The position numbers were made by a program, and so were the translations under genes. Below are positions 2,674-24,489 of a stretch of 64,000 nucleotides of DNA, piece after piece. The notes under the pieces are model-generated. The model made no database searches and was not told where the DNA came from. It saw only the letters and a list, made by a program, of their open reading frames with translations. Source of the stretch: an uncultured Litoreibacter sp. (GTDB taxonomy: Bacteria; Pseudomonadota; Alphaproteobacteria; Rhodobacterales; Rhodobacteraceae); NCBI GenBank assembly GCA_947494645.1, contig CANLVO010000001.1:1984001-2048000 (forward strand). Direction: 5' to 3'. Positions within the stretch are counted from its first letter, which is position 1; each line of letters starts with the position of its first letter.

Positions 2674-2800
2674 TTTGTCTGCTTTTTGTAGGTAACGGTA
2701 TGCAAACACATGATACACAGCGATACCCGGTGCGCAATAATATTATATTAAATGAAAGTGTTAGACAAAAAATGCAACTCTACGAAACACAAGACTTCTT

Positions 2801-2971: not shown

Positions 2972-3877
2972 TCATCCAAGCAATGCGAGAACCTCATCGC
3001 GCATCGGCATGGATGGGGCCGCGCCAGCGCGTGTGACCGACAACCCGGCAACCGCGCAGGCCATGCGCACCGCGTCTTCAGGTGGAATTCCGTCGGCCAG
3101 ACAGGCCGCAAACCCGCCATTGAACGCGTCCCCTGCCCCGGTCGTCTCGACGACCTCCCCGGCTGAGACCGCAGGCACCAGACCGAATCCGTCGAGATAC
3201 GCGCCTTGGGACCCCATCGTGATAATCGGACGCGCAACACCCAGCCGCTTCAATGCCTCACACGCCTTTTGCGCCGAAACGGCATCATTGACCTCCACCC
3301 CGCACAAGCTGTGCGTTTCCGTCTCATTCGGGGTGACGTAGTCGCACAGGGCCAACATCTCAGCCGACAGCTCAGCGGCGGGCGCAGGGTTAAGGATCGT
3401 GATGACCCCGGCATCGCGGGCAATCTGCAACCCGCGCATCGCCGCATCCATCGGCTGTTCCAACTGGGTCATGAAGACCTGCGCGTTTTCAATCACCCTC
3501 CGGTTGGCCACAAGATCTGACGGAGTAATCTCAGCCGCAGCCCCCGGTGCAATAATGATCGCGTTGTCGCCGCTGGCCGCGTCAATGAAGATATGCGCAG
3601 CCCCAGTATAGCTGTCCGGGTCTTGCGTGACATGCGGAGTGATGCCCGCATCGTCCCAAAGCCCAAACGCCATCTGCGCGAAATCATCGTCCCCCAAACG
3701 GGTAATCATAGCCACATCCGCGCCCATCCGAGCGGCGGCAACCGCCTGATTGGAGCCTTTCCCACCGGGGTTCATCGCAAAGGATTGCCCCAAAACGGTC
3801 TCCCCCATCACGGGAAGACGGTCGGCCCGGAAGGCCAGGTCCGCAACGAACACGCCCAATACTGCGATCTTGCCCAT
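2972..3877 (-). CDS. rbsK: PfkB-family sugar kinase (ribokinase-like)
   Basis: This 301-residue cytosolic kinase belongs to the ribokinase/PfkB family. The N-terminal signature N-P-G-G-K-G-S-N-Q-A is near residue 37. The substrate/ATP region contains N-P-A-P-A, and the catalytic anion-hole motif T-T-G-A-G-D-A-F-N-G-G-F is near residue 248 with Asp as the base. It is the last gene of the long catabolic operon, 2 bases after the Gfo/Idh gene upstream, so it probably phosphorylates a sugar or sugar-acid intermediate of that pathway. Ribose itself is not proven: there is no ribose ABC transporter nearby. A GC-rich inverted repeat (GGGCGG...CCGCCC) around 2906-2930 may end transcription. Confidence 0.85.
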   Translation of the reverse strand: MGKIAVLGVFVADLAFRADRLPVMGETVLGQSFAMNPGGKGSNQAVAAARMGADVAMITRLGDDDFAQMAFGLWDDAGITPHVTQDPDSYTGAAHIFIDAASGDNAIIIAPGAAAEITPSDLVANRRVIENAQVFMTQLEQPMDAAMRGLQIARDAGVITILNPAPAAELSAEMLALCDYVTPNETETHSLCGVEVNDAVSAQKACEALKRLGVARPIITMGSQGAYLDGFGLVPAVSAGEVVETTGAGDAFNGGFAACLADGIPPEDAVRMACAVAGLSVTRAGAAPSMPMRDEVLALLG

Positions 3878-3879
3878 GG

Positions 3880-4938
3880 CTAACTCCTTTGCGGCATCCA
3901 GCCAGCATAAAGTGCGTGCTCAGGTCCGATTGGGCAAGCCTCGGCCGCCCCATTCGCGCGGCTCGATGCATAGATTGCAGTGATCAGCTCAATCGAGGCG
4001 CGCGCGTCGGCGAGCCTCACAGCGCTGTTCGGCTCGCCACCAATACGTGCCGCGACCTGAGCCAGAAATCCGGGGAACCCCGCACGCGCCTGAGGCACGC
4101 CAGCCGTGACCCTGTCCACCTCGATCTGCGCCGTCATATCGCGAGCCTGAAAGACCCATTCCTGATCCATCGGCGCATAAGGTCTGGGCCCGCTGGTCGC
4201 CGTCAAATGCTCAAAAACCAAGCGAATGCGCGTGGTGTCATCGCTGCCGCCAAGCGTCACAGAGCTGGTCGCCAACGCACCGCTTTGCATAGTGAAACTC
4301 AGCGCCGCGCAATCCTCAGTTTCAATCGGGTTGATCCGTGTCGCAAGCCGCGCATTGACCGATCCGACCCCACCAAACAAATGCGATAGCAGATCATGAG
4401 CATGGATCGCATGCCCTACCACGGCCCCACCGCATTCGCCCTGCCAAGTTCCACGCCATGGCACTGCATAATAGCTGGCGTCCCGGGCCCAATGGGTCTC
4501 GAGACTGGCCATCTGCGGCTGCCCCAAAAGCCCGGCGTCACGCAAGGCGTCAAGCTGGTCCATCGCCCGGCCGAACCGATACTGAAACACCGGAAACAGC
4601 GTCCCGTTCGAGGCCGCCTCCGCCTCTTCAAGCAAGTCGATTTCCGCAAGGCTCGTGGCCAAAGGCTTTTCACAGATGACATGTTTGCCAGCCGCCAGCG
4701 CTTTCAGGCTCATCGGCACATGCAGATGCGGCGGCAGGCAAATATCGATCAGGCCAATCTCAGGGTCCTGTATCGCCGCCTCGGCGTCGTCGCTGACAGG
4801 CAAATCGCCCGCAATGTCTTGCGCCCGCTTCAGGTCAAGATCGCATATCACCGCCACTTCAAAAAGGTCCGGCAAGGCGTGGTAGCCTGCCAGGTGCTCC
4901 GCCCCGATCCCTGCGCCTAGAATAGCAACGCGGATCAT
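3880..4938 (-). CDS. Gfo/Idh/MocA-family oxidoreductase (1)
   Basis: NAD(P)-dependent sugar or cyclitol dehydrogenase family, 352 residues. The Rossmann motif G-A-G-I-G-A-E-H is at the N-terminus, followed by the acidic strand end I-C-D-L-D. The E-K-P motif that carries the catalytic Lys is near residue 95, and the G-H-A-I-H-A-H-D box supplies the His/Asp of the active site. It overlaps the upstream dehydrogenase by ATGA and precedes the kinase by 2 bases. This is one of four paralogues in one operon, so each probably acts on a different step or carbon. The substrate cannot be read from sequence. Confidence 0.85.
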   Translation of the reverse strand: MIRVAILGAGIGAEHLAGYHALPDLFEVAVICDLDLKRAQDIAGDLPVSDDAEAAIQDPEIGLIDICLPPHLHVPMSLKALAAGKHVICEKPLATSLAEIDLLEEAEAASNGTLFPVFQYRFGRAMDQLDALRDAGLLGQPQMASLETHWARDASYYAVPWRGTWQGECGGAVVGHAIHAHDLLSHLFGGVGSVNARLATRINPIETEDCAALSFTMQSGALATSSVTLGGSDDTTRIRLVFEHLTATSGPRPYAPMDQEWVFQARDMTAQIEVDRVTAGVPQARAGFPGFLAQVAARIGGEPNSAVRLADARASIELITAIYASSRANGAAEACPIGPEHALYAGWMPQRS

Positions 4939-5945
4939 GCGCTATCCGCCATCACTTGAGCTTTGAGAGATAACTCCATGGTTTTAAACACATGCTCTTG
5001 CGCCATCGCCGTCTCTGTTCGGTCAGCCACGTCCGCCGCAAGCCGCGCGAAATATGGCAGACCGGCATCCTTGCAGTCCATCCTCTCGGCCCGCGTGTCA
5101 TTCACAAGGAACAGATGATCGCCACCCGGTGCGCCACCGACATCGACGTATTTTCTGAGCTCAATCGTGCCCTTAGTGCCCAGCAACATGAGCCGTCCGT
5201 CACCCCATGTCGGCAGCGCATCGGGGGTGAACCAATCGACGCGTATGTAGCCTTCGGCCCGATCAGACTTCAGCACAATCTGCCCGAAATCCTGCAAGCC
5301 TGGCGTCTGGGGATTGCCGTAATTGCCGGTGCTCGCATAGGTCACCTCAGCATCAGTTGAGCCTGTGAAAAACAGGAACTGGTCAATCTGATGAGACGCA
5401 ATATCGGTCAGGATCCCGCCAAATTTTTCGGGCTCGTAAAACCAATCTGGGCGCGTATTGAGGTTCAACCGATGCGGCCCGATCCCGATGGTCTGGATCA
5501 CTTGGCCAATGGCGCCCTCGGCAACCAGCTCTGCGGCACGCGTGACCGCTGGAACCTCAAACCGCTCCGAGAAATCAATGGACCAAATCCGACCCGTCTG
5601 CCCGACACACGCCTTGATCTGTTCAAGCTGGGCCTGACTGGTGCAACCCGGCTTGTCGCTCATTACATCCTTGCCCGCCTGCATGGCGGCAACCGCGAAC
5701 GCAGCCCGCTTGGACGGGATCCCGGACAACAGGATCAGGTCGATATCGTCTCGCTCGATGACATCACTCGCCCGGGCCACACGCGGCAGGTCTGGAAAGC
5801 GTTTCACGAAGCCTGCCAGCGTCTCTGGCTCGCCTTCTGTCCACCAGCAAACCAACTCCGCGCCGACTTTCTTCATTTTGGCGGCCATGCCGTAGATGTG
5901 GCGGTGGTCTATTCCCACGATCCCAATGCGCAAAGGATTAGACAT
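4935..5945 (-). CDS. Gfo/Idh/MocA-family oxidoreductase (2), variant catalytic motif
   Basis: A 336-residue family member with an N-terminal Rossmann fold (G-I-V-G-I-D-H-R-H). The usual E-K-P motif is S-D-K-P-G here: the catalytic Lys is kept and the preceding Glu is Asp. The second-domain box is I-A-S-H-Q-I-D-Q-F. The protein has W-W-T-E-G in place of the usual acidic cofactor-selecting residue, so cofactor preference is unclear. It overlaps the upstream gene by 8 bases and the downstream gene by ATGA. It may be a divergent dehydrogenase or an epimerase-like member; I cannot say which. Confidence 0.8.
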   Translation of the reverse strand: MSNPLRIGIVGIDHRHIYGMAAKMKKVGAELVCWWTEGEPETLAGFVKRFPDLPRVARASDVIERDDIDLILLSGIPSKRAAFAVAAMQAGKDVMSDKPGCTSQAQLEQIKACVGQTGRIWSIDFSERFEVPAVTRAAELVAEGAIGQVIQTIGIGPHRLNLNTRPDWFYEPEKFGGILTDIASHQIDQFLFFTGSTDAEVTYASTGNYGNPQTPGLQDFGQIVLKSDRAEGYIRVDWFTPDALPTWGDGRLMLLGTKGTIELRKYVDVGGAPGGDHLFLVNDTRAERMDCKDAGLPYFARLAADVADRTETAMAQEHVFKTMELSLKAQVMADSA

Positions 5946-6963
5946 GCGTCACCTCAACTTGTTTCTTGTCTCGTGACGACCTAGTGAGCGCATCAATCAA
6001 AGCATGTACTTTCAGCGCCTCCTGCCCTGTCACCAGCGGCGGACGATCTTGGGTAATGGCCTGCGCGAAATCCTCAATGATCCCCTGATGCAGCGCATGG
6101 CTGAACGCCATGGGGTCGGCCCCCGACCCGCTTTTGGCCGCGGCCCCAAACGTCTCTGAGCTGCCATCGCGGCCGTGCCAGATCAATTCCCCACGACTGA
6201 CCTCGGCAGACGCATGCGCGCCGTGTAGCTTGATGCTCTCGGAGCTGCCCGGAAAGCTTGCGGTGCTGGCGACCAGCGAGCCCACCGCCCCGCTCGCAAA
6301 CTCCAACCCGGCAGAAACGAAATCCTCTGCCTCCATTTCGTGCGCCACCGACGTGCGGGCAAAGGCCTGAACCGTGCGCACCGGCCCGGTGAAGGACAAC
6401 GCGAGATCCAGCACATGGATCGCCTGGGTCATCAGCACCCCGCCGCCATCCCGCGCATAGGTACCGCGCCCGGGCTCATCATAATAGCTTTGGTCGCGCC
6501 ACCAGGGCGCAGTGATTTCCACCGCATGGATCGCCCCCAGCTCAGACAGCTTCTCGCGCATAATCTTCGAAGCACCTGCCGCCCGGTGTTGAAACAGAAC
6601 GCCCAAGGGCACCCGCCCCTCGCAAAGCTGAACAAGGCTGCGGGCCGCACTCAAACTACGCTCAACCGGCTTTTCCATCAGCACCGGCTTCCCCGCCGCC
6701 GCAAGCGTTTCAACGAGCTCCATCCTGGCGTCCGGCGGCGTCGTGACGATTACAAAATCCACATCAGACGCCGCGACTTCCGCAAGACTGCCAAAGGTCC
6801 GCACGGCCATATTGTGATCACGCCCAAGAACCTCAGCGTAACGGGCCGCCGAAGCCTCTGACCGGGCGCACACCCCAACAAGCTCTACGAGGGCGCTGTC
6901 CCTACACGCCAGCGCATGGGTGTCCGCAACCATGCCGACCCCGATCATTGCGACCTTCAACAT
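5938..6963 (-). CDS. Gfo/Idh/MocA-family oxidoreductase (3)
   Basis: A 341-residue dehydrogenase with the motif G-V-G-M-V-A-D-T-H-A at the N-terminus and E-K-P-V-E-R-S at about residue 97. A T-Q-A-I-H-V-L-D-L-A box lines the substrate pocket. The region W-W-R-D-Q-S-Y-Y-D-E-P-G-R-G-T resembles the R-D-A-S-Y-Y-A-V-P-W-R-G-T of paralogue 1, so these two are closer to each other than to paralogues 2 and 4. The cytosolic NAD(P)-dependent reaction is inferred from the family. It lies 9 bases downstream of the HIBADH-type gene. Confidence 0.85.
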   Translation of the reverse strand: MLKVAMIGVGMVADTHALACRDSALVELVGVCARSEASAARYAEVLGRDHNMAVRTFGSLAEVAASDVDFVIVTTPPDARMELVETLAAAGKPVLMEKPVERSLSAARSLVQLCEGRVPLGVLFQHRAAGASKIMREKLSELGAIHAVEITAPWWRDQSYYDEPGRGTYARDGGGVLMTQAIHVLDLALSFTGPVRTVQAFARTSVAHEMEAEDFVSAGLEFASGAVGSLVASTASFPGSSESIKLHGAHASAEVSRGELIWHGRDGSSETFGAAAKSGSGADPMAFSHALHQGIIEDFAQAITQDRPPLVTGQEALKVHALIDALTRSSRDKKQVEVTHV

Positions 6964-6972
6964 ATCGCTAGG

Positions 6973-7854
6973 CTAGGCTTTGAAGCGGTCAGCGTAGAAA
7001 TCGACCATCTGGCTGACCATGTCGTCGCCCCGACCCGCATCCCGCGCGGTCTGCAGCGCTTCCAAAGTGGAGCGCGACATGATCGTGTCGACCTCCGCGT
7101 CCTTGGCCATCTGCGCGTAATACCCCACGTCCTTGGCCGCGTTCTTGATCGCAAAAGCCAACTGCGCCGGATCGCCGTCGACCCCGTAGCCCTTGACGAA
7201 GTCCATCATGCCTGAATGCAAAGGACCCGCCGACATCACGTCATATAGCGCCTGCCGGTCGACCCCCTGCACATCCGCCATTGCGAACGCTTCCGCCATT
7301 GCGTTGGCCACCGTCATGCCAAAGAAGTTGTTGATCAGCTTGATCGTATGCCCCGAACCCAATGGGCCAAGGTGAAAGACGTTCTCGCCCAGATCATCCA
7401 GCACAGGTTTGACCTTGTCGAAAACCGCCTTGTCGCCCGAGCACATGATGTTCAGCAAACCGTCCACGGCATGCGCAGGCGTGCGGCCCAACGGGCCGTC
7501 AAGATAGGTTCCCCCTGCCGCCGCCACGGCCTCTCCCAGCGCGCGGGTCGACGCGGGCAGCGACGTGCCGAAATCAATCACGACAGCGCCGGGTCGTAGC
7601 CCGGCAATCACGCCATCCGGGCCGTTCATCCGGCTTTCCACCTGATCCGAGGTGCCCATGCAAAGCATCACGATATCGGAGGCCTCTGCGACCTCGCGCG
7701 CAGTGCCAACCTCAGTCGCGCCTCGGGCAACAGCCGCCTCGACATTGGCCCGCGACGTGTTGGCGACAACCGTCAATGCATGTCCACATTTCTGCAGGCA
7801 TTGCACCATCGCGTCGCCCATAAGGCCCAGGCCAATAAATCCAACTTCGCTCAT
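6973..7854 (-). CDS. HIBADH-family NAD(P)-dependent dehydrogenase
   Basis: A 293-residue member of the beta-hydroxyacid dehydrogenase family (3-hydroxyisobutyrate, tartronate semialdehyde and related). It opens with F-I-G-L-G-L-M-G-D-A-M, has the substrate loop D-G-P-L-G-R-T-P near residue 118, and the catalytic Lys in H-T-I-K-L-I-N-N-F near residue 170. The usual D-A-P-V-S-G sequence of the family is D-G-P-L-G-R here, which suggests a changed acid-binding site. It overlaps the oxidase upstream by ATGA. It is likely to oxidise a 3-hydroxy acid or reduce a semialdehyde of the pathway. Confidence 0.85.
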   Translation of the reverse strand: MSEVGFIGLGLMGDAMVQCLQKCGHALTVVANTSRANVEAAVARGATEVGTAREVAEASDIVMLCMGTSDQVESRMNGPDGVIAGLRPGAVVIDFGTSLPASTRALGEAVAAAGGTYLDGPLGRTPAHAVDGLLNIMCSGDKAVFDKVKPVLDDLGENVFHLGPLGSGHTIKLINNFFGMTVANAMAEAFAMADVQGVDRQALYDVMSAGPLHSGMMDFVKGYGVDGDPAQLAFAIKNAAKDVGYYAQMAKDAEVDTIMSRSTLEALQTARDAGRGDDMVSQMVDFYADRFKA

Positions 7855-8948
7855 TCGGTGTCTCCTAAATTTTCCAATATCAAAGCCGCGCCTCGGCGGC
7901 CCAATTCGTCACTACACTTCGCGCCGGCGCCATTGCCCCCGGTGCACACGACAAGCCGATCGCTCAGCGCCCTGATCTCCGGCAAGCGGGACGTCGTCCA
8001 GCTGGTCACACAAGCATCCATACTGACGCTTTCAATCCTCAAAGAAGGCATCAATGCGCGGATCATCTCCTCAAGGCGGTCCCGCACGTCAGCGCTGCCG
8101 CCCCCCCGAAACCAGTCTCCTACCGCACCCGGCCCGTCAAGTCGCACATCCTCCGGGTCACCGCCGAGCTTGAGATAGGTTTTGCCATCCGGATACAGAA
8201 TGGGCGGCAAAAGATACGGGTCTTCAGGCGCTTCATAAACAAGCGAAGGCATCGTCTTCAAACGTTCCGCCTCCGCCGCGTCGACCTCAAAGAAGGCAAC
8301 GGTCCGGGCATACACATCAAGCTGTGGATCCCGCCCGAGAATGGCGTCAGTCCACCCACCGGCGGCGACCAGCACGTGGTCAAATTCGAGCAGACCGTCC
8401 GACGTGCGCACGCGCGCCTCGGAAACATGCCTCACCTCTGTCACCACAGGCTTGGCCCCGTGTTTGAACGCTGCCGCCTGCTGTGCTGCCACCAATCGCC
8501 GGGGGCTGACATGACCCGCGCGGCGGCGCTCATAGGCCCCGGAAAACCCCGGGTCGAAAGCAAAATACGGGAACGTTTCGCTCAAACCGCCCGCGTCCAG
8601 CATATGGCTCTCAACCCCATGCATTTGCGCCGCTTTGTCAATCTGAGCGATCCACGTATCCGAGCCCGCCATCAATGCCCCGGTTTCCGAAAAGAATGAG
8701 ATGCCGCTCTCTGTTTCGATCTCGCCATACCGCGCGATGGAGGCCTTGGACACCTCGACCCAGAACGGATCAACAGCGTTATGCCGCGTAATTCTACCTT
8801 CGTCGTAATGCGACCCAAACGTGCCTTGATGGGTGCGCTTGTTTTCTGGCTCGGCAGGCCCGATCAGCGTCACGTCGACACCGGCCTTCGCCAGATGCCG
8901 CGCCGCCGCTGAGCCCATCAGCCCGGCCCCCACGACCCCTACCTTCAT
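7851..8948 (-). CDS. FAD-dependent oxidoreductase, DAO/sarcosine-oxidase-like
   Basis: A 365-residue flavoprotein with the dinucleotide motif G-A-G-L-M-G-S-A-A-A-R-H-L at the N-terminus, followed by the T-L-I-G-P strand. Its layout resembles monomeric sarcosine and N-methyl-amino-acid oxidases, including a C-V-T-S-W-T near residue 320 where those enzymes attach FAD covalently to a Cys, and a late V-V-C-T-G-G-N-G-A-G. The family oxidises secondary amines or alpha-hydroxy/amino acids with O2. Position between a PhyH dioxygenase and a HIBADH gene suggests oxidative removal of a methyl or amino group from the operon's substrate (inference). Confidence 0.8.
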   Translation of the reverse strand: MKVGVVGAGLMGSAAARHLAKAGVDVTLIGPAEPENKRTHQGTFGSHYDEGRITRHNAVDPFWVEVSKASIARYGEIETESGISFFSETGALMAGSDTWIAQIDKAAQMHGVESHMLDAGGLSETFPYFAFDPGFSGAYERRRAGHVSPRRLVAAQQAAAFKHGAKPVVTEVRHVSEARVRTSDGLLEFDHVLVAAGGWTDAILGRDPQLDVYARTVAFFEVDAAEAERLKTMPSLVYEAPEDPYLLPPILYPDGKTYLKLGGDPEDVRLDGPGAVGDWFRGGGSADVRDRLEEMIRALMPSLRIESVSMDACVTSWTTSRLPEIRALSDRLVVCTGGNGAGAKCSDELGRRGAALILENLGDTE

Positions 8949-9835
8949 TCCGCCACCTCAAAGCTGCGGTTCTTCAACTGCTTTTGAACTTCATAAATGG
9001 TAAATTCATCCGTAGGCAGCGGCGCAGGGATGCGCGCGCCCAGCGATTGCACCCTTGGCTCCAGCACCGGGTCTCCGCACAACAGCCGGGTGTTGTAGTC
9101 CTCAATGCCGTTCCATTTGGTCATCGACCCCATGATCGGGAAGGCATCTGCGGCCATCATCTCGTAGAACAACAGCCGCCGGTCGCGGTCCGACACGTTC
9201 AGGGCCGATCCATGCACAATCCGTCCATGATGGATGGAGATCGATCCCGCAGGCCCCGTCAACTCCACCGCGTCCTTCATGTCATATCCGCAGGCCGCCA
9301 AGTCCATCGCTCCCGCAAAAACGCCGTTCACATGGTGGTCGTTGATCGGATGCTTGTGCGAGCCCGGGAACACCATCAGGGGGCCATTCTCGCTGGCCAT
9401 GTCGTCAATGATCACCGCAATCGCGAGCACGTCGTCATTGGTATGCGGATAGAATGCGAAATCCTGATGCCACTCAACGGCGGCCCCGTAGCCGCCCATC
9501 TTCATGTTCAGCTTGGTCGTATGCAGCCTAAGTGCCGGTCCAATGAGATCCCGCGCAGGCGCCAGCACATGGTCGGAATACATCAGGTCGCGCATTACTT
9601 CATTATGAGTATGCGGCAGCTTGATTCGCCGCACTCTTGGCTCTTCCGCCGTATGGCTGTCTTCCAGATCAATCTGGCTGTCAGACGCCGTCATCCCCCG
9701 CGCCTGTTCTTCATATTTGGCAATCTCATCGCGGATGCTTTGCAGAATGTCGTCGGGGATGCGGTTCTCTAGCACGAGGTAGCCGTTCTCCTCATAGAAC
9801 GCCTTTTGGTCTTGCGAGAGCGTTTCCAATGTCAT
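8945..9835 (-). CDS. Phytanoyl-CoA dioxygenase (PhyH) family protein (1)
   Basis: Fe(II)/2-oxoglutarate-dependent oxygenase family, 296 residues from the ATG at 9835. The open frame runs to 10021, but 9835 gives an ATGA overlap with the AroE-like gene and the natural start M-T-L-E-T-L. The iron ligands appear as H-Q-D in V-E-W-H-Q-D-F and a distal His in R-I-V-H-G-S, with Arg of the R-D-R-R-L-L segment likely to bind 2-oxoglutarate. Members hydroxylate or demethylate small molecules as well as fatty acyl-CoA. A second PhyH gene is at 13157, so the pathway may contain two hydroxylation steps. Confidence 0.85.
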   Translation of the reverse strand: MTLETLSQDQKAFYEENGYLVLENRIPDDILQSIRDEIAKYEEQARGMTASDSQIDLEDSHTAEEPRVRRIKLPHTHNEVMRDLMYSDHVLAPARDLIGPALRLHTTKLNMKMGGYGAAVEWHQDFAFYPHTNDDVLAIAVIIDDMASENGPLMVFPGSHKHPINDHHVNGVFAGAMDLAACGYDMKDAVELTGPAGSISIHHGRIVHGSALNVSDRDRRLLFYEMMAADAFPIMGSMTKWNGIEDYNTRLLCGDPVLEPRVQSLGARIPAPLPTDEFTIYEVQKQLKNRSFEVAE

Positions 9836-11639: not shown

Positions 11640-13141
11640 ATCACCGCCCCGATCTGCCATGGCACAAATTCATAGTCGCCCAGCCCCTGCGCTTCGGACT
11701 TCGACACCTCGCCCGACGCCACCCGCAGGATCAACTCGTAAATCTCGCGCCCCTTCTCTTCCAGGCTGACACCGCCGGTCAGCATGTCGCCCGCGTTGAC
11801 GTCCATATCGTCGGTCATGCGCTGATACATCTCGGTGTTGGTCGCAACTTTGATGGTCGGCGCGGGCTTGGACCCAAAGGCGGAGCCGCGCCCTGTGGTA
11901 AACACCACCACATTGCACCCCCCCGCGATCTGCCCCGTCACTGAGGCCGGGTCGTAGCCCGGCGAGTCCATAAACGTGAACCCCTTGGCCGTCACCGGCT
12001 CCGCGTATTTGTATACGCCGGTCAGGGGCGAGGTCCCCCCCTTCGCCGCCGCCCCCAGCGACTTCTCCAAGATCGTCGTCAGCCCGCCCTTCTTGTTCCC
12101 CGGCGACGGGTTGTTGTCCATCGAGCCGCGGTTGCGTTCCGTGTAATCCTTCCACCAGTCAATCAGCCCGATCAGCCGTTCTCCAACGGCCTCAGACACC
12201 GCCCGCCGCGTCAACAAATGCTCGGCGCCATAAATCTCCGGTGTCTCCGCCAACACGCCGGTCCCGCCCTGCGCGGCCAGCAAATCGCAGGCATACCCAA
12301 GCGCCGGGTTGGCCGTCACACCGGACCACGCGTCCGAGCCGCCGCATTGCAAAGCCACTTTCAGCTCCGACACCGGGCATTCTTCCCGCACAGCTTCATT
12401 GGCAATCGGCAGCATCGCCTCAATCTTCGAAATCCCCATCTCAATGGTCCGCTGCAACCCCGCCACGCCCTGAATGTTCATCACCTGGAACGTGTCCGAG
12501 GCCTTCAGCCCATAGGCCTCCAGCAACCAGTCGATCTGGTTCATCTCGCAGCCCAGACCCACCATCAAAACACCCGCATGGTTGGGGTGCTTGGCGTAGC
12601 CCCACATCACGCGTTGCAACGCCTCAAACCCGTCGCCGCTATCCGCCATCCCGCAGCCCGTGCCGTGCACAAAGGCGCAAACCCCGTCGACATTGGGGTA
12701 ATCCGCCAGCCGCTCCTCGGTGAAGTGATCCGCAATCCGCCGCGCCGCCGTGGCCGAACAATTCACCGACGTCACAATCGCGATATAGTTCCGCGTCCCG
12801 ACCGAGCCGTTCTCCCGCCGGTACCCCATAAACGTATCACCCGACGCCTCAGCAACCGGACGCATATCTGTCCCAAACTCATATTCCTGATCCGTCGCCA
12901 CGAAGTCGCAATTGTGCACATGCACATGCTCGCCCGGCGCAATGTGGTCCGACGCCACCCCGATCATCTGCGCGTATTTGCGGATTTGGTCGCCCTTGGG
13001 GATCGCGCGAATGGCCACCTTATGGCCCGAGGGGATCAACGCTGTGGTCCGCTTCCCGTCGGCGACCTCAACCCCGACCTCCAGCGCTCGCGTGGCCGTG
13101 ACGACATTGTCGTCGGCATCTAGGCGGATGTAGTCTTTCAT
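11636..13141 (-). CDS. Altronate dehydratase / galactarate dehydratase family (UxaA-like)
   Basis: A 501-residue enzyme with the two-part UxaA layout: an N-terminal SAF domain of about 90 residues (S-G-H-K-V-A-I-R-A-I-P-K-G) and a large C-terminal dehydratase domain containing N-Y-I-A-I-V-T-S-V-N-C-S, H-G-T-G-C-G and G-G-S-D-A-W-S-G. The family removes water from hexonates such as D-altronate, giving 2-keto-3-deoxy acids, and needs Fe2+. Length equals that of E. coli UxaA. No uronate isomerase or UxaB is nearby, so altronate itself is not certain. It follows the second PhyH gene by 15 bases. Confidence 0.85.
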   Translation of the reverse strand: MKDYIRLDADDNVVTATRALEVGVEVADGKRTTALIPSGHKVAIRAIPKGDQIRKYAQMIGVASDHIAPGEHVHVHNCDFVATDQEYEFGTDMRPVAEASGDTFMGYRRENGSVGTRNYIAIVTSVNCSATAARRIADHFTEERLADYPNVDGVCAFVHGTGCGMADSGDGFEALQRVMWGYAKHPNHAGVLMVGLGCEMNQIDWLLEAYGLKASDTFQVMNIQGVAGLQRTIEMGISKIEAMLPIANEAVREECPVSELKVALQCGGSDAWSGVTANPALGYACDLLAAQGGTGVLAETPEIYGAEHLLTRRAVSEAVGERLIGLIDWWKDYTERNRGSMDNNPSPGNKKGGLTTILEKSLGAAAKGGTSPLTGVYKYAEPVTAKGFTFMDSPGYDPASVTGQIAGGCNVVVFTTGRGSAFGSKPAPTIKVATNTEMYQRMTDDMDVNAGDMLTGGVSLEEKGREIYELILRVASGEVSKSEAQGLGDYEFVPWQIGAVM

Positions 13142-13156
13142 GTGTTTTCTTTCGGG

Positions 13157-14080
13157 TTACGCGCAATAGGGCGCGTCTGATTGCCATCTGTGAATGTCGA
13201 TATGGGGCTGCGCCGCAAGCCGCGCGCGGGCGTCCTCCCACATGGTTTTGTACTGCCGCCAATCGCGCATTTCGGTCTCGGGCGCGGCGCGTGAACGCGC
13301 CACAAAGTCCGGGAAATGCGCCCGCCCCGTAGGCTGGCCGGTTTTGTTGAATCGCAGATCAAACGACCAGCGGATGCCGTCGGTTGTGTTGACCAAGGAT
13401 GAATGCGGCACCAGCGGATGGAACAGCACCATCCCGCCCGCTTTCACGGGCAGAGGCACGGCCCCCTCTTCATTGATAAACCCATCCGCAATCGCTGTCT
13501 GTTGCTTTGGACAATGCGGCAATATCTCTTGCGGACCGTTGAACGGCTGCACTTGCAAACACCCATTCTCCACCGTCGCATCCGTCACGGCGACCCAACA
13601 GGTGATCATGTCGGTCTCATCCGCCTCTTCCAGCCCGACGGCGCGGTCCTGATGCCAGTCGGTGGCGGTAATATGGGCCCGCACCTCGTCACGATGCAGG
13701 TCCACCGCCGGAGGTTTGATCCGTACATGCTGAATGGGGTTCGACACCAATTCAGGACCAATCAGGCTTTCCACCACATCCAGCAACGCAGGCGCGGTCA
13801 TGAAGTCGAGCACGGCAGGGCCAATATGAAACGGGGTATCTGCGTGGATGCGATCCCCCGGCAGCGAGATATCCATCGGCTGATGCCAATCATGCCCGGC
13901 GCGGTACGCCGCGATCAGCTTCTCCTCAAAGCTGTCACCTTCGATCCCCCACCCGGCACAAAGCCCGTCCAGCAATTCTGCATACTCCGCCTTTAAGGCG
14001 GGCAGCTTGTCGGTCAGCACATCCTCTACGACCAGATAGCCGTCTCGGTTGAACCGGGCGATCTGGTCGTTGGTGAGCAT
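13157..14080 (-). CDS. Phytanoyl-CoA dioxygenase (PhyH) family protein (2)
   Basis: A 307-residue Fe(II)/2-oxoglutarate oxygenase-type protein. Its iron site is seen as T-D-W-H-Q-D-R-A-V-G, with the distal His in V-P-H-S-S-L-V and the 2-oxoglutarate Arg in G-I-R-W-S-F-D-L-R. A good AAAGGAC ribosome site precedes the ATG at 14080. It is longer than paralogue 1 (9835) and differs throughout, so the two are unlikely to be a recent duplication. It lies between the TRAP permease and the dehydratase. It probably hydroxylates or demethylates the imported substrate early in the pathway (inference). Confidence 0.85.
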   Translation of the reverse strand: MLTNDQIARFNRDGYLVVEDVLTDKLPALKAEYAELLDGLCAGWGIEGDSFEEKLIAAYRAGHDWHQPMDISLPGDRIHADTPFHIGPAVLDFMTAPALLDVVESLIGPELVSNPIQHVRIKPPAVDLHRDEVRAHITATDWHQDRAVGLEEADETDMITCWVAVTDATVENGCLQVQPFNGPQEILPHCPKQQTAIADGFINEEGAVPLPVKAGGMVLFHPLVPHSSLVNTTDGIRWSFDLRFNKTGQPTGRAHFPDFVARSRAAPETEMRDWRQYKTMWEDARARLAAQPHIDIHRWQSDAPYCA

Positions 14081-14093
14081 AGGTGTCCTTTCG

Positions 14094-15719
14094 CTACGGC
14101 AGCAGCAACGCCACGATGGGCGGCCAGATCAACAGGACGGACAGCGCGCAGATCTGGATGCCGATGAAAGGCAGGAAGCCTTTGAAGATATCGGTCAGCG
14201 AGATATGCGGCGGGGCCACGGATTTCAGGTAGAAGGCCGCAGGGCCGAATGGTGGCGACAGGAACGACACCTGCATGTTCATACAGAACACCACGCCGAA
14301 CCAGATCGCGACATGCTTCGGCTCAAGCTGGCCGAAATAGCCGATGTCTTCGATGGGCAGACGCAGCACGATGGGCAGGAACACCGGGATGATCAGCAGC
14401 ACGATGCCGACCCAATCCATGAACGCGCCCATAAAGAGCAAGATCACCATCATCACGAGGATGATGCCCATGGTCGGCACATCGAGACCAACAACCAGAT
14501 CGGCCACGAAAACCGGACCGCCCGCGATGGTGTAAGCGCCCGCAAGCGCCGCAGCCCCGATGGTCACCCAGATGATCGTACCGGTCGATTTCAGCGTTCG
14601 CATCAGGCTGTCCCAAAGAAGGTCCCAAGACGCCTCGCCCCGCAAGGCGGCCATGACCAACACTGCGAATGCGCCCATGCCAGCGGCCTCTGTGATGCCG
14701 GTGATACCCATATAGATGGAACCCAGCACCACACCGATGATGATGATCGGCGGAACAAGGCCTTTGCCCATGCTCCAGCCTTTCTTGGTGCGCTCAGTGC
14801 CCACCACGAAGAAGATCAGCGCCAGTGCCACGGCAATGGTGCCAAGGAACCACGGCAGGTAATTCATGGTACCAAACCGGATCGCATCGCCGGTGTTGGA
14901 CGCATTCTGACCGGAAAACTCAAAGAACAGAACCCGCGCGGTGAAGAAGCTCCACGCGCCCACAACGACCACGCAGAGGAAGCCAAGAAACAGCAGCCAT
15001 TTCTCCAAACCTTCCGGCTCGCCCGGGATGGGCTCCGGCAATGGCGCGTCTTCGGGGCGCAGACGGGTGCGCACCAGAATGTAGATGATGAAGAACGACG
15101 CCAGCATGAAGCCCGGTAAGAACGACGCAGTGAAGAGCGCCTTGATTGAGGTCTCCGTGATCAGCCCGTAAATGATCAAAACGATCGAGGGCGGGATCAT
15201 GGTGCCCAGCGAGCCGGATGCACAGATCGTCCCGATGGCGAGGTTCTGGTTGTAGCCCAGCCGCAGCATCTGCGGCAGCGCGATCAGGCCCAACAGGACC
15301 ACCTCGCCGCCAATGATGCCCGACATGGCGGCCATGATCACGGCCATGATGGAGGTCACCACCGCGATGCCGCCCCGTGTGCGGTTCAGCCAGATGTTGA
15401 GCGAGGAATACATGTCTTTGGCAATGCCGGAACGCTCCAGCAGCGCCGCCATGAAGATGAACAGCGGGATGGATATGAGCACATAGTCCGTTAAGAGCCC
15501 GTATATCTTTTGGGCTAAGATATTTAAGGGTCCCGACCCCGGCCTCCCCGTCAATATCCCGTCCCCGAAGGTCCAGGGTGCGGTGAGCAGCTGCGGCTCG
15601 AATTTCATGACCAGCACCAGCACCGCCAGAATGGCCGACGCAAAGCCCAGCGGCATGCCGATGGCCAGTAGCACCAGAAGGCCCAAGAGCAGGACCAGTG
15701 AGATTGTTCCGATATCCAT
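14094..15719 (-). CDS. dctM: TRAP transporter large permease DctM (long type)
   Basis: Membrane component that carries out Na+-driven uptake of an acidic substrate handed over by the periplasmic DctP protein. It has 541 residues, clearly longer than the usual 425-430. An extra hydrophobic block of about 100 residues lies in the middle. The start M-D-I-G-T-I-S-L-V-L-L-L is immediately hydrophobic. Typical family segments are G-G-E-V-V-L-L-G-L-I-A-L-P-Q-M and P-P-S-I-V-L-I-I-Y-G. The stop of dctQ lies 1 base upstream. Q, M and P genes are all in this operon, though P is separated from Q by the enolase gene. Confidence 0.9.
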   Translation of the reverse strand: MDIGTISLVLLLGLLVLLAIGMPLGFASAILAVLVLVMKFEPQLLTAPWTFGDGILTGRPGSGPLNILAQKIYGLLTDYVLISIPLFIFMAALLERSGIAKDMYSSLNIWLNRTRGGIAVVTSIMAVIMAAMSGIIGGEVVLLGLIALPQMLRLGYNQNLAIGTICASGSLGTMIPPSIVLIIYGLITETSIKALFTASFLPGFMLASFFIIYILVRTRLRPEDAPLPEPIPGEPEGLEKWLLFLGFLCVVVVGAWSFFTARVLFFEFSGQNASNTGDAIRFGTMNYLPWFLGTIAVALALIFFVVGTERTKKGWSMGKGLVPPIIIIGVVLGSIYMGITGITEAAGMGAFAVLVMAALRGEASWDLLWDSLMRTLKSTGTIIWVTIGAAALAGAYTIAGGPVFVADLVVGLDVPTMGIILVMMVILLFMGAFMDWVGIVLLIIPVFLPIVLRLPIEDIGYFGQLEPKHVAIWFGVVFCMNMQVSFLSPPFGPAAFYLKSVAPPHISLTDIFKGFLPFIGIQICALSVLLIWPPIVALLLP

Positions 15720-15720
15720 G

Positions 15721-16551
15721 TCAGTCGGCCCCCACGGCTTTTTTCAGCCGCTCAATTTCGTCTTCGTCAATGTCGTCCGCAGCGCTGTGCACCACCGGCT
15801 CGTTGTTCCAATCCGAGATCAGGTTGATCACCGACTGGATCGCCACCAGCGACACCACGATCAGCACCGTCGGCTTGATGGTCGCAGGGATCGGCGGGTC
15901 GAAGGCCGTGCCAAACGTCTCCCAGCGGCCAAACTTGGCGAAGGCCTCGCCGTAGCCGCCATAGACCAGAAAGAACGCAAAGGTGACGATCAGCAGGGTC
16001 GAAACGCAGTCGCAGACCCGCTGCAACCAGCGCGGGAACATGTCGTAGATCAGAAAGATGCGGATGTGGCTGCGCTGCTGCATGGCGTAAAGCCCGGCGC
16101 ACAGGAACACGAAACCCGCCAGCCACAGCGACAGCTCGTTGGCCCAGAGCGTGCCTGCGTTCAGCACATAGCGCACAAACACCTCATACAGCATCACGCA
16201 GGTCAGCAGCACCACCAGCAACATGGTGACGCGGCCGATAAACACCGACACGCGGTCAAGCGGCCCCCAGCTTTCATATTCCATCGCCGCGCGGCGCACG
16301 GTCTTGATGCCGAAAAAGCCCAGCACCGGCAGGGCGAGCAATGCAAGGATATCGATGATGTCGATATACTGCCCCATAACCACCGGCATGCCCGGGGCCA
16401 CGTCCAGTCGCTTGTATTGTTCCGAGAGCTGCTGCCCGTCGCCGCCCCAATCGAGAATAAAGGCGGGCATGTGCCACGTCACCCAAGCGGCGCACAGGAT
16501 GAATGCCAAGGGCATCAACCACTCTATGAGCGATCCTGATTTCTGTTCCAT
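15721..16551 (-). CDS. dctQ: TRAP transporter small permease DctQ (long type)
   Basis: Small membrane subunit of the TRAP transporter, partner of the DctM encoded next to it. The frame opens at 16566, but the ATG at 16551 has GGAGG 7 bases upstream and begins M-E-Q-K-S-G, so it is preferred (276 residues). Several hydrophobic segments are seen: L-M-P-L-A-F-I-L near the N-terminus, I-D-I-L-A-L-L-A-L-P, V-T-M-L-L-V-V-L-L-T and W-A-N-E-L-S-L-W-L-A-G-F-V-F-L. The E-L-S-L-W-L-A-G segment is characteristic of DctQ. The protein is longer than the usual 160-200 residues, matching its long DctM partner. Confidence 0.88.
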   Translation of the reverse strand: MEQKSGSLIEWLMPLAFILCAAWVTWHMPAFILDWGGDGQQLSEQYKRLDVAPGMPVVMGQYIDIIDILALLALPVLGFFGIKTVRRAAMEYESWGPLDRVSVFIGRVTMLLVVLLTCVMLYEVFVRYVLNAGTLWANELSLWLAGFVFLCAGLYAMQQRSHIRIFLIYDMFPRWLQRVCDCVSTLLIVTFAFFLVYGGYGEAFAKFGRWETFGTAFDPPIPATIKPTVLIVVSLVAIQSVINLISDWNNEPVVHSAADDIDEDEIERLKKAVGAD

Positions 16552-16575
16552 GTCCCCTCCTCCCAATCTGTGGCG

Positions 16576-17748
16576 TTACGCGGCCACGGCGTAGTGTCTC
16601 AAAAAGTCTCGGTCCGGCTCCACTCCGATTCCATGCCCCTGCGGGATGGCCACCCGGCCCCCGTTGGCTTTGACCTGTCCCTGAATATCCAACGGCTCCG
16701 CCAACAGGTTGTCGCGGAACTTGTTGTCGGTGGTGTCAAACTCCAGCATCGGCTCCCACGGGTGCAGGCCGCCCGGCATCGGCGGCATCGCCGCCAGCAG
16801 TTGCAAGTTGGTGGCCACCGCGATGGCTGAACCCCAGACATGGTTAATCACCGGGGTGAAATGTGCATGGCACAGGGCCAGAACACGCAGGTACTCGCTG
16901 ACCCCACCCAAGGCACACACCTCGGGTTGCGCAATATCGAGGCCGCGATTCTCCAGAATGGCGCGCCAGCCCCAGCGGCCAAACTCGGCCTCTCCGCCTG
17001 AAATGTTCACGCTCAGCCCGGCCCGCAATTCGCGGTAGCCGTCATGATCCTCAGGCGCGACGGGTTCTTCGAACCAATAAGCCCCCAGCTCTTCCAAAGC
17101 GCGGCCCACATAGAAGGCGTCCGACGTGGTGTAGCAATGGTTGGCGTCGACCATGAATTTGAACTCTGGGCCGACCCCTTCCCGCACCGCCTCGCACAGC
17201 CGCACATCGTCACGCGGGCCCAGACCGGTTTTCATCTTGGTGGCAACGAAGCCCATGTCGCGGATCGCGGCGGCCTCGTCCTTGAACAGCGCGACCAAAT
17301 CGTCCGTGCTATGCTCAGGCCGCAGCATCATGCCGTAACCATAGGCCGGCACATCCGCACGGTGCGCCCCGCCAATCAGCTTGTGCAGAGGCATAGCGGC
17401 GGCTTTGCCCGCAATATCCCACAGCGCAATATCGACGCCTGACAGGGATTGCATCGGCATCCCCTTCTGGCCGTGGTCGCGCATCAGGTTGTAAACTTTG
17501 TGCCAGATCACGTCGCGGTCCAGCGGGTCCATACCCACGACCATGGGGGCAATCACGCCCTCGACGATCCCTTTATTGGCCAGCGCAATGGCGCCCGGCC
17601 CAAAACATTCGCCCCATCCGGTGACGCCTTCGTCTGTTTCCACCTCCACCAGATGCGCGGTGCGCTTGTCATAGTATTGCTGCGAATACCCAAGCGGTTC
17701 GGGCATGTCGTATTGCAATACATGGCTGGTGATGCGGGTGATTTTCAT
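16576..17748 (-). CDS. Mandelate racemase / muconate lactonizing enzyme family protein
   Basis: Enolase-superfamily enzyme of 390 residues, expected to abstract a proton alpha to a carboxylate (acid-sugar dehydratase or epimerase). K171 and K173 form the K-x-K pair (A-T-K-M-K-T-G). Mg2+ ligands are D201 (V-D-A-N-H), E227 (F-E-E-P) and E253 (G-G-E-A-E-F). H303 (I-N-H-V-W-G-S) and an upstream D271 could form the His-Asp dyad of the mandelate-racemase subgroup. It lies between dctP and dctQ, so it probably performs the first step on the imported acid. The exact sugar acid cannot be named. Confidence 0.85.
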   Translation of the reverse strand: MKITRITSHVLQYDMPEPLGYSQQYYDKRTAHLVEVETDEGVTGWGECFGPGAIALANKGIVEGVIAPMVVGMDPLDRDVIWHKVYNLMRDHGQKGMPMQSLSGVDIALWDIAGKAAAMPLHKLIGGAHRADVPAYGYGMMLRPEHSTDDLVALFKDEAAAIRDMGFVATKMKTGLGPRDDVRLCEAVREGVGPEFKFMVDANHCYTTSDAFYVGRALEELGAYWFEEPVAPEDHDGYRELRAGLSVNISGGEAEFGRWGWRAILENRGLDIAQPEVCALGGVSEYLRVLALCHAHFTPVINHVWGSAIAVATNLQLLAAMPPMPGGLHPWEPMLEFDTTDNKFRDNLLAEPLDIQGQVKANGGRVAIPQGHGIGVEPDRDFLRHYAVAA

Positions 17749-17781
17749 CGGCTCAAGGCTGTCCTGAAAGGCGGCAGGGAC

Positions 17782-17819
17782 AAAAAAGCGCGGGGCCTGT
17801 CCAGAGGAAGGCCCCGCGC
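17782..17819 (-). terminator. Rho-independent (attenuating) terminator after dctP
   Basis: On the minus strand a perfect 10-bp GC stem (GCGCGGGGCC with GGCCCCGCGC, 12-base loop, 17788-17819) is followed by six T (17787-17782). It lies between dctP and the enolase gene of the same operon, so it probably reduces transcription of the downstream genes relative to the binding protein. Confidence 0.85.
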
Positions 17820-17833
17820 CGGAAACGTCAGGC

Positions 17834-18859
17834 TTACTCTTGTACGAGGCCCAGCTGTTTCAGGTACGCAACGTGGCTTTCCACCAGAGCTTTCGCTTCA
17901 GGGGTGGTCGCGAACTCAGGCCATGTGGCTTGAGCAGCGTTGCGGAACTCTTGCAGATCCTCTGCGGACCACTGCGAGATCGTCACGCCTTGCTCTGTCA
18001 GCGCGGCTGCGGCTTCTGCGTTCTCCTTTTCAAAGATCAACGCGGACTTCAGCGCGATGTCAGAGATTGCAGTTTCCATGATCAGGCGGTGGTGATCTGG
18101 CATGCCGTCCCAAACTGCTTTGTTACAAGCAATGTGGTCAGATGGCATCGAGTGGAAGCCCGGGAAGTTCGCGTATTTCGCGATGTCGTAAAGACCCAGA
18201 CCAACGTTGTTGGCCAGACCGGATGCGTCGGCACCGTCGATGATACCAGTTTCAAGCGCGGTAAAGATCTCGGTGAAGTCCATCACGATCGGCTTGGCGC
18301 CGAGCTTTTCGAAGATCTTGGTTTCCATGCCTGGAGGCGAACGGAATTTCCAGTCTTTCAGGTCGGACAGGCCAGCAATGGGCTTGGTCGATGCGAAAGA
18401 TTCCTGACCGTAGACGATCCAGCCAACAAGCTGCATGTCATACTGGTTGTAGAGCGCCTGAGCCGCTTCACGACCGCCGCCGTAGTAGAGCCATGACAGC
18501 TGCTGAGCAGGTGTCGCGTAGCCGCCCATGATGTCACCAACGAATTGGAACGCAGGGTTTTTACCAGTTTGGTAGCCGCCGCCTGTCGCGTCGCAATCCA
18601 GAATGCCGGTTGCTGCAGCGTCAAAGGTCTCAACCGATTTCACAACGGAGGAGGAGTAGAACATCTCGATGGCGATCTCGCCGTTCGACATGGCTTCCAC
18701 GTTCTCTTTCCATTCGGTCAGCAGTTTGCCCGAAGTGGTTTCAGGGGCGTAGTGTGTTTGGATGCGCAGCTTGGTGCTGGCGTGGCCATCAGCAAAAGCG
18801 CCGGTTGCAGCGATAGCTGCTGCTGCGACGGCTGTCGCAACGGTTTTAACGAAACTCAT
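17834..18859 (-). CDS. dctP: TRAP transporter substrate-binding protein DctP
   Basis: Periplasmic binding protein of 341 residues that captures the substrate for DctQM. A Sec signal peptide is clear: M-S-F-V-K-T-V-A-T, then an Ala-rich core and cleavage around A-F-A-D (residue 23). Family segments include R-I-Q-T-H-Y-A-P-E-T and W-K-F-R-S-P-P-G with the Arg that normally salt-bridges the ligand carboxylate. A strong ribosome site (GGGAGGAAACCA) precedes the ATG. It is the first gene of the 15-gene operon, followed by a terminator-like hairpin. Expression is likely set by the divergent GntR regulator. Confidence 0.92.
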   Translation of the reverse strand: MSFVKTVATAVAAAAIAATGAFADGHASTKLRIQTHYAPETTSGKLLTEWKENVEAMSNGEIAIEMFYSSSVVKSVETFDAAATGILDCDATGGGYQTGKNPAFQFVGDIMGGYATPAQQLSWLYYGGGREAAQALYNQYDMQLVGWIVYGQESFASTKPIAGLSDLKDWKFRSPPGMETKIFEKLGAKPIVMDFTEIFTALETGIIDGADASGLANNVGLGLYDIAKYANFPGFHSMPSDHIACNKAVWDGMPDHHRLIMETAISDIALKSALIFEKENAEAAAALTEQGVTISQWSAEDLQEFRNAAQATWPEFATTPEAKALVESHVAYLKQLGLVQE

Positions 18860-19802: not shown

Positions 19803-19843
19803 ATAGAGCGGCGCATGCGCCGGATCTTGGTCCGCAGCTCTAT
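19803..19843. terminator. Branched hairpin between convergent gntR and denD-like genes
   Basis: ATAGAGC (19803-19809) pairs with GCTCTAT (19837-19843). Inside lie the palindrome CGGCGCATGCGCCG and a shorter GGATC/GGTCC stem, so the element can fold as a three-way junction. It overlaps the TAG stop of the denD-like gene. A two-way terminator for the converging genes is likely, although T-runs are short. Confidence 0.45.
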
Positions 19844-22609: not shown

Positions 22610-22616
22610 GGGCGGA

Positions 22617-22648
22617 TTTGAGTATTTGGAACCAAATGGAAACAAGGG
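22617..22648 (-). repeat. Dispersed repeat module 1, intergenic copy
   Basis: Read on the minus strand this is CCCTTGTTTCCATTTGGTT followed by CCAAATACTCAAA. It lies between the SDR and dehydratase genes. The same unit occurs at 56946-56980 and, without the first bases, at 21243-21267. Confidence 0.55.
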
Positions 22649-22691
22649 CGTCTCGCAACAGGGGACGCGTTAACCTTAATGGGACGTGTAG

Positions 22692-24479: not shown

Positions 24480-24489
24480 GAGTTATCCA

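Follow-up and report, generated by a model that had tools for sequence, protein, structure and literature searches.

Three described sugar-acid systems come closest to the locus considered here. In the non-phosphorylative Route III of Herbaspirillum huttiense, the D-arabinonate dehydratase belongs to the UxaA/GarD superfamily and has four conserved cysteines; it is active on D-arabinonate and far less so on D-altronate, L-fuconate and L-galactonate, and the route yields pyruvate and a hydroxy acid (PMC6336799). The L-gulonate pathway of Haemophilus influenzae, which uses a tripartite ATP-independent periplasmic (TRAP) transporter, runs through GulPQM-GulD-UxuB-UxuA-KdgK-KdgA (PMC5788505), and the L-galactonate/L-fuconate loci of Halomonas and Chromohalobacter bring together a TRAP transporter, UxaA and a fuconate-type COG1028/COG0179 branch (PMC5507952). 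The present analysis concerns a 64,000-nucleotide stretch of DNA from an uncultured Litoreibacter sp. (hereafter the window; genome size 3.44 Mb), in which 15 minus-strand genes at 2972-18859 probably belong to a functional unit reaching 26288, i.e., 2972-26288 or about 23 kb. On balance, this is probably a catabolic locus for an aldonate-type sugar acid, likely of six carbons, that works by a hydrolytic route. Sugar acid as the substrate class is well supported, and the hydrolytic route moderately so. The reactions, their order and the substrate are proposed from gene content, conservation, retained or lost residues and the modules of relatives.

As in Route III, the window encodes a four-cysteine UxaA/GarD dehydratase, a dehydrogenase and a FAH-family hydrolase; unlike Route III (PMC6336799), it adds a TRAP transporter, IlvD and enolase dehydratases, AroE, Gfo, PhyH and DAO proteins, and GarR/GhrB-like enzymes. 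It shares the TRAP, UxaA and COG1028/COG0179 combination of the Halomonas/Chromohalobacter loci, whereas LgoD and UxaB of those loci (PMC5507952) were not seen here, AroE/Gfo/HIB-type enzymes, oxygenases and a flavoprotein being found instead. With the H. influenzae pathway (PMC5788505) it would have in common a TRAP-imported hexonate, two oxidoreductases, a dehydratase and 2-keto-3-deoxygluconate (KDG), but its own genome has no UxuA, the locus has no KdgK or KdgA (homologues lie elsewhere), and the cleavage module is of hydrolase type. An earlier sequence-only reading of the 15 genes knew of no described pathway with this set. That may hold for the exact set, for which no published system was found in open-licence literature, but L-gulonate and L-galactonate are known to be degraded by the same logic, with a TRAP transporter, oxidoreductases and a dehydratase of UxaA/UxuA type.

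A candidate hydrolytic route

The TRAP transporter would import a sugar acid bearing a 2-hydroxy or 2-keto carboxylate. Its solute-binding protein DctP (17834-18859, 341 aa, PF03480), small permease DctQ (15721-16566, 281 aa, TTG start, PF04290) and large permease DctM (14094-15719, 541 aa, PF06808) are all over the Pfam cut-off and form a full transporter set. The closest solved structures to DctP are 4pe3, 7ug8 (ketoacid-binding), 2zzv and 2hzk, and the best alignments are with 4pe3 and with keto-acid/lactate binders. R173 and D211 of DctP align with the arginine and the acidic residue of solved TRAP chains, whose roles in the site we assume. PMC12076931 mentions an arginine that is conserved among TRAP binding proteins.

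Once inside, the different stereoisomers would reach a dehydratable form by oxidation and re-reduction of hydroxyls, for which four oxidoreductases, Gfo1 (10647-11660, PF01408), Gfo2 (5938-6963, PF22725/PF01408), Gfo3 (4935-5945, PF22725/PF01408) and Gfo4 (3880-4938, PF01408), are candidates, together with the AroE paralogue where present. A UxaA/GarD-superfamily (GD_AH) sugar-acid dehydratase, here called UXA (11636-13141; PF20629, PF04295, SAF), would then remove water to give a 2-keto-3-deoxy acid, aided by a galactarolactone-cycloisomerase-like enzyme of the enolase superfamily (16576-17748, PF13378/PF02746) and by an IlvD/Edd-type sugar-acid dehydratase (22692-24479, plus strand; NF009560, 1010.5 bits for a cut-off of 684). 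In UXA, C128, C163, C198 and C266 are invariant in six of six aligned sequences including E. coli UxaA and GarD, to which UXA is 35.6% and 37.9% identical; identity rises to 57-58% with two family members from outside the locus, of which one belongs to a trio of UXA, FAH and short-chain dehydrogenase/reductase (SDR) genes. On the GarD-family model TIGR03248 it scores 385 against a cut-off of 731. The best matches of the enolase-superfamily enzyme in the PDB are 4ggb/4hpn (311.8 bits) and 5olc (280.3 bits), the first of which we take to be the Agrobacterium galactarolactone cycloisomerase Gci.

The steps proposed to follow are encoded on the far side of the regulator, where an SDR (21866-22609, plus strand) would oxidize the 2-keto-3-deoxy acid at C4 and a FAH-family hydrolase (24490-25335, plus strand) would cleave the resulting 2,4-diketo acid, releasing pyruvate and a hydroxy acid. 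The FAH protein is closest to 2,4-didehydro-3-deoxy-L-rhamnonate hydrolase (NF053535, 436.6 bits, below the NCBIfam cut-off of 500), and its H82-x-x-E85 motif, read by eye, has the spacing of His83/Glu86 of the Route III hydrolase as reported in PMC6336799. For the SDR, the family assignment is clear, with no equivalog over its cut-off among the 25 best NCBIfam models listed. In Marivivens, the compact UXA-SDR-FAH trio is 58, 50 and 60% identical to the respective window proteins. It is mainly the likeness and motif of the FAH protein, the cysteines of UXA and the Marivivens trio that favour a hydrolytic cleavage yielding pyruvate and a hydroxy acid. The sequence-only reading had noted that no aldolase is included and that the products must feed a pathway encoded elsewhere, a conclusion not supported in that form, as the same window has SDR and FAH genes (21866-25335) that resemble the cleavage module of Route III.

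A hexonate would yield glycerate as the hydroxy acid, a pentonate glycolate and a 6-deoxyhexonate lactate. Processing of this acid may fall to HIB (6973-7854, PF03446/PF14833), a beta-hydroxyacid dehydrogenase of tartronate-semialdehyde-reductase type whose best NCBIfam model, TIGR01505, gives 172 bits (cut-off 340.75), to a GarR-like tartronate semialdehyde reductase (20805-21689, minus strand; same model, 250.7 bits), to a GhrB-like 2-hydroxyacid dehydrogenase (25332-26288, plus strand; NF011938, 202.7 bits, cut-off 492) and to a D-erythronate-dehydrogenase-like enzyme (DenD; 19840-20832, minus strand; NF043036, 358.4 bits, over the cut-off of 325). HIB and the GarR-like and GhrB-like enzymes, with a glycerate-kinase family MOFRL gene found outside the locus in the own genome, would handle the three-carbon acid, and a KDG-kinase/2-keto-3-deoxy-6-phosphogluconate (KDPG)-aldolase branch may provide an alternative exit. 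In its most specific form, this route would lead from an L-hexonate such as L-galactonate, or a substituted derivative freed by the PhyH/flavoprotein pair, to pyruvate and L-glycerate, the latter being converted via tartronate semialdehyde to D-glycerate by HIB and the GarR-like enzyme, with an AroE-family sugar-acid dehydrogenase taking part in some strains; so detailed a version is tentative and, as a whole, unlikely.

Conservation and sugar-acid context in relatives

A collection scan seeded with an AroE alignment gave 575 loci, of which the best 80 were taken and 58 kept as the operon group. Left out were 18 loci with AroE at 37-42% identity (L122-L139) and four orphans (L097, L102, L103, L115); the four orphans, Rhodospirillales AroE homologues, were rejected as locus members, carrying none of the other locus genes, and the genes beside L097 and L103 belong to unrelated housekeeping families. 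Presence was scored with identity cut-offs chosen gene by gene (35-65%), and the counts in the 58 loci are lower bounds, many loci being truncated at a contig end or at the limit of the 10-kb flank. HIB is found in 47, DctM in 46, DctQ in 45, DctP in 43, UXA in 41, Gfo1 in 34 and the GntR regulator in 33, followed by a DMT exporter (27), PhyH2 (26), the GarR-like enzyme (25), SDR and PhyH1 (22 each), IlvD (19), Gfo2 and the DenD-like enzyme (16 each), Gfo3 and a KdgK-like kinase (14 each), FAH and LysE (12 each) and the DAO flavoprotein (10). Least frequent are the 2-hydroxyacid dehydrogenase and an L-idonate-dehydrogenase-like (IdnD-like) protein (8 each), glucuronate isomerase (UxaC; 7), Gfo4, an MtlD-like reductase and the window-type enolase (6 each) and the window-type PfkB (3). 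Gfo2 and Gfo3 occur together in 14 loci.

When UXA served as the query, 20 of 21 genomes of the genus proved to carry it, the own genome included (19 of the 20 others). Among these 19 relatives, taken as stretches of at most 20 kb so that presence counts are again lower bounds, UXA and HIB are found in 19, Gfo1 and DAO in 18, PhyH2 in 16, AroE in 11, PhyH1 in 10 and the window-type enolase in three. Seventeen have the full set of DctPQM, UXA, Gfo1 and HIB; in the exceptions, the contig of G019 ends inside UXA and G015 has no Gfo1. As AroE is missing from eight of the 19, it is considered an accessory enzyme, and its appearance as a core gene came from the AroE-seeded scan. Of 194 other genomes, 16 encode an AroE orthologue with 50% identity or more, in most cases among similar neighbours, and the row is thus a conserved neighbourhood and not a chance run of open reading frames (ORFs).

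The wider half of the locus is also found in relatives. Thalassococcus sp. S3 has a like arrangement around its TRAP operon, without the DenD-like gene and with SDR-IlvD-FAH-2-hydroxyacid dehydrogenase; the four divergent proteins are 66-80% identical to the window's, and the window SDR is 77% identical to the Thalassococcus SDR, compared with 50% for that of the Marivivens trio. A DctP relative in Hartmannibacter (53% identical) is followed by genes for TRAP permeases, an enolase, an SDR, an L-idonate 5-dehydrogenase and a 2-hydroxyacid dehydrogenase. The DctP relative of Jannaschia sp. M317 (70% identical) has no TRAP permease or such enzymes directly adjoining; SDR, enolase-family and kinase genes lie within 10 kb after it. 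On a plasmid of Loktanella salsilacus (L146), a DctP 69% identical to the window's and a FAH protein (58%) adjoin L-threonate dehydrogenase, 3-oxo-tetronate kinase and aldolase genes. The window genome carries a DUF1537-family kinase (PF07005) elsewhere, which may connect with the DenD-like gene.

The sequence-only reading had proposed a catabolic operon for a modified sugar acid or cyclitol. A catabolic locus with a sugar acid as substrate is supported by the genes in or beside related loci, which include glucuronate isomerase, mannonate dehydratase and gluconokinase genes and others resembling those for KDG kinase, fructuronate reductase and L-idonate dehydrogenase. The KdgK-like kinase accompanies HIB in 13 of its 14 loci and directly follows it in seven. 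Mannonate dehydratase occurs in one of the 58 and in L056, outside the 58. In Thalassococcus, glucuronate isomerase and mannonate dehydratase exceed their NCBIfam cut-offs and stand with a fructuronate-reductase-like protein. The four KDG-kinase-like proteins of relatives that were tested score 252-299 bits (cut-off 400) and the L-idonate 5-dehydrogenase-like protein of L083 scores 358.8 bits (cut-off 469); the gluconokinase of L119 is over its NCBIfam cut-off and a glycerate-kinase-family protein of L098 below it. Relatives of the Gfo2-Gfo3 pair adjoin uxuA in Paracoccus seriniphilus, where the TRAP transporter is another one (its DctP shares 22% identity with that of the window), and uxaC-reductase-uxuA in Ketogulonicigenium; elsewhere the pair also occurs without such genes, e.g., in Phyllobacterium sp. 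T1293, where an ABC sugar transporter adjoins it.

Exporters of the DMT (EamA) and LysE types often form part of the locus (27 and 12 of the 58, e.g., L056:15233-16126 and L109:12680-13285). On three gammaproteobacterial-labelled contigs (L079, L085, L086), an MFS transporter, a 2-hydroxyacid dehydrogenase-like protein, Gfo1, the AroE paralogue and HIB adjoin an aminotransferase and an alpha/beta hydrolase, UXA and TRAP genes not being seen in the stretches examined; this smaller set could be the simplest system in which to study the function of AroE and HIB.

Gene row, AroE paralogue and flanking DNA

All 15 minus-strand ORFs that the sequence-only reading placed within 2972-18859 are present, and Pfam and NCBIfam profile searches agree with the families it named. 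Its statement that the genes are joined mostly by ATGA overlaps was too strong: overlaps occur at seven of the 14 junctions, and ATGA accounts for four. In detail, there are four ATGA and one GTGA overlaps of 4 bp, two longer overlaps (8 and 25 bp) and seven gaps of 1-85 bp, 13 of the 14 junctions being no longer than 25 bp. The most likely start of PhyH2 is the ATG at 9835 rather than the mechanical GTG at 10021. The row ends with a ribokinase-like PfkB kinase (2972-3877; TIGR02152, 300.8 bits, cut-off 299.65), and a GntR-FCD regulator (19057-19764, plus strand; PF00392/PF07729) diverges from dctP.

The genes are predicted to form one regulated unit, which is likely. The sole long gap, of 85 bp between dctP and the enolase gene (17749-17833, minus strand), holds a GC-rich, terminator-like hairpin followed by T6 (fold z -3.12), a possible attenuator. 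A similar structure follows dctP in 12 of 45 related loci, compared with 29 of 450 stretches drawn at random from these loci (Fisher p 8e-5). Hairpins 3' of solute-binding-protein genes usually lower, and do not abolish, downstream expression. Given this hairpin, a single transcript may not run through all 15 genes. A scan for sigma-70 promoters and terminators gave counts near chance (7 vs 6.3 and 20 vs 18.1) and left the dctP hairpin unlisted, probably owing to its loop limit of 8.

The AroE paralogue (9832-10650, PF08501) has quinate/shikimate dehydrogenases (3jyo) as its closest solved relatives by sequence, from which it differs in its substrate site. Residues were compared in the window protein, in 33 of the 62 AroE proteins remaining in the scan (three of them orphans) and in all 18 of the other group, named the quinate-context group even though a QuiC-like gene is found in only 13 of the 18; a type II dehydroquinase is found in 10, one representative of each having been annotated. 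K69, N91 and D105, the catalytic Lys and Asp plus an Asn, are kept in 51 of 51. Position 245 is Met in the window and in 32 of the 33, L101 alone retaining Gln, vs Gln in 18 of 18 in the quinate-context group. Position 17 is Leu, Phe or Tyr in all 33 (Leu in the window) vs Ser in 11, Ala in five and Met in two of the 18, while position 15 is Thr or Ser in all 33, Ser/Thr being kept throughout. We take Gln 245 to be the substrate-site Gln and positions 15 and 17 the carboxylate-site Ser/Thr pair. The paralogue shares its family and the catalytic Lys/Asp with 3jyo. It departs from that enzyme at the substrate-site Gln, replaced by Met, and at position 17, where the operon group has a bulky Leu, Phe or Tyr, and we would not call it a shikimate dehydrogenase.

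Two Fe(II)/2OG oxygenase-family proteins, PhyH1 (13157-14080, PF05721) and PhyH2 (8945-9835, PF05721), and a DAO-family, monomeric-sarcosine-oxidase-like flavoprotein (7851-8948, PF01266) may strip an O-methyl group or an N-substituent from the substrate. In PhyH2, WHQD and a distal His align with solved enzymes, so that the HxD...H motif, presumably the iron site of PhyH proteins, is kept. The closest solved relative of the flavoprotein is 1l9c (monomeric sarcosine oxidase), and its C313 aligns with the flavin-site Cys of that enzyme, which we assume to link the flavin. In Skermanella, a PhyH2 relative (47%) stands beside a TRAP binding protein and two proteins with counterparts in the window, a FAH protein (60% identity) and an SDR (only 31%), which suggests that a PhyH2-type oxygenase can belong to a TRAP/FAH/SDR module. 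The patchy presence of the PhyH and flavoprotein genes outside the genus makes them look accessory, perhaps for removing substituents. A methylated or aminated sugar acid or a cyclitol, as proposed by the sequence-only reading, is not directly supported, since of the 58 loci 22 have PhyH1, 26 PhyH2 and 10 the flavoprotein; their frequency within the genus (10, 16 and 18 of 19) speaks for it.

Directly beyond the end of the row at pfkB lie a tyrosine recombinase/integrase with an Arm DNA-binding domain (1597-2718, minus strand) and an ORF at 596-1630 (minus strand) that has no family match in Pfam, NCBIfam or PADLOC. The G+C content drops here from about 0.62 to about 0.50, and together with the integrase this suggests that the pfkB end may be an island boundary. 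Directly beyond the other end of the locus, a stretch of 0.455 G+C encodes a SIR2_2-domain protein (26823-28220, minus strand), which matches the PADLOC candidate defence family PDC-S25 (264.6 bits). Farther on, a second large TRAP permease (35265-36590, minus strand), a DHDPS-family protein (38743-39696, minus strand; best model KdgD, 89 for a cut-off of 374) and a LysR regulator (40630-41574) possibly make up another organic-acid locus.

Competing readings and significance

Several points weigh against the hydrolytic route. The FAH, GarR-like, GhrB-like and HIB proteins and the 25 best SDR models listed are all under NCBIfam equivalog cut-offs; FAH and SDR are found in only 12 and 22 of the 58 loci, many of which end before that point; the PfkB at the end of the operon is, in the own genome, ribokinase-like and not KdgK-like; and Gfo1, PhyH2 and DAO, near-constant in the genus (18, 16 and 18 of 19), are left unexplained. 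The two divergent intergenic regions share no 14-mer with up to two mismatches in a simple comparison. A shared GntR operator was thus not detected by it, and neighbourhood alone argues for co-regulation of the two halves of the locus. A doubtful yet serious competitor is the classical hexuronate/hexonate isomerase route, in which D-altronate or D-mannonate would give KDG for KdgK and Eda, the FAH module serving another substrate. UxaC, fructuronate-reductase-like, UxuA and KdgK-like genes do lie within the loci of relatives, UxaC and the reductase in seven of the 19 of the genus. In the own genome, UxaC and a fructuronate-reductase-like gene lie on C1 at about 1.223-1.226 Mb, some 760 kb from the locus, a KdgK-like kinase (243 bits, cut-off 400) lies on C2, and Eda adjoins Edd. 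With no UxuA there (no PF03786 match in the own genome) and UXA as the only UxaA/GarD homologue, UXA may also act as D-altronate dehydratase. However, UXA is nearer to its two outside relatives, one of them in the UXA-SDR-FAH trio, than to UxaA or GarD, UxaC and KdgK lie outside the window's locus, and IlvD, SDR, FAH, the GarR-like enzyme, AroE and PhyH would be left unexplained. Equally doubtful is the view of the island as several independent sugar-acid modules that share a transporter and a regulator without forming a single pathway: the hairpin after dctP fits it, and DMT, UxaC-MtlD, KdgK, IdnD-SDR, LysE and Gfo2-4 come and go between close relatives, but the joint presence of DctPQM, UXA, Gfo1 and HIB in 17 of the 19 does not suit it.

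An aldarate/uronate oxidative route, in which the Gci-like enolase and the GarD-like UXA would lead from galactarolactone and galactarate to the same 3-deoxy-2-keto-hexarate, appears improbable. It would account for the kinship of the enolase with 4ggb/4hpn, the place of UXA in the GarD family and the adjoining GarR-like gene. Enolase-superfamily matches are found in six of 11 loci without UXA vs eight of 32 with it, but the contrast is not significant (Fisher p 0.13), one of the six (L110) is a 28% match far upstream, and strict mutual exclusion of the two enzymes was rejected. Moreover, the window-type enolase is restricted to six of the 58 loci and three of the 19, the DHDPS-family gene reaches only 89 of 374 on KdgD, and no protein of the locus scored as a uronate dehydrogenase, the DenD-like protein passing the D-erythronate dehydrogenase cut-off instead (no genome-wide search was made). 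Finally, a cyclic acid, quinate/shikimate-like or a mycosporine-like cyclohexenone, processed by AroE, PhyH demethylation and amine oxidation, is very hard to credit. The next AroE relatives (37-42%, 18 loci) do occur with QuiC-like or type II dehydroquinase genes, and N-alkyl and O-methyl groups would suit enzymes of the DAO and PhyH families, but 32 of 33 operon-group AroE proteins have another residue in place of the substrate Gln, which all 18 others keep, and eight of the 19 genus loci lack AroE while the rest remains. With that Gln lost and sugar-acid genes as the linked genes, a true shikimate/quinate pathway was rejected.

Sugar acids are part of the organic carbon open to marine Rhodobacterales. 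If the preferred reading of a hydrolytic sugar-acid locus is true, it would give functions to more than 12 enzymes now annotated by family alone, and a hydrolytic hexonate pathway yielding pyruvate and L-glycerate would be one without description in the literature covered. A subgroup of AroE, labelled "shikimate dehydrogenase" by automatic annotation, would likewise be defined, and the island would combine three sugar-acid dehydratases of unrelated families with a module for hydrolytic cleavage and, in some members, a re-tasked AroE.

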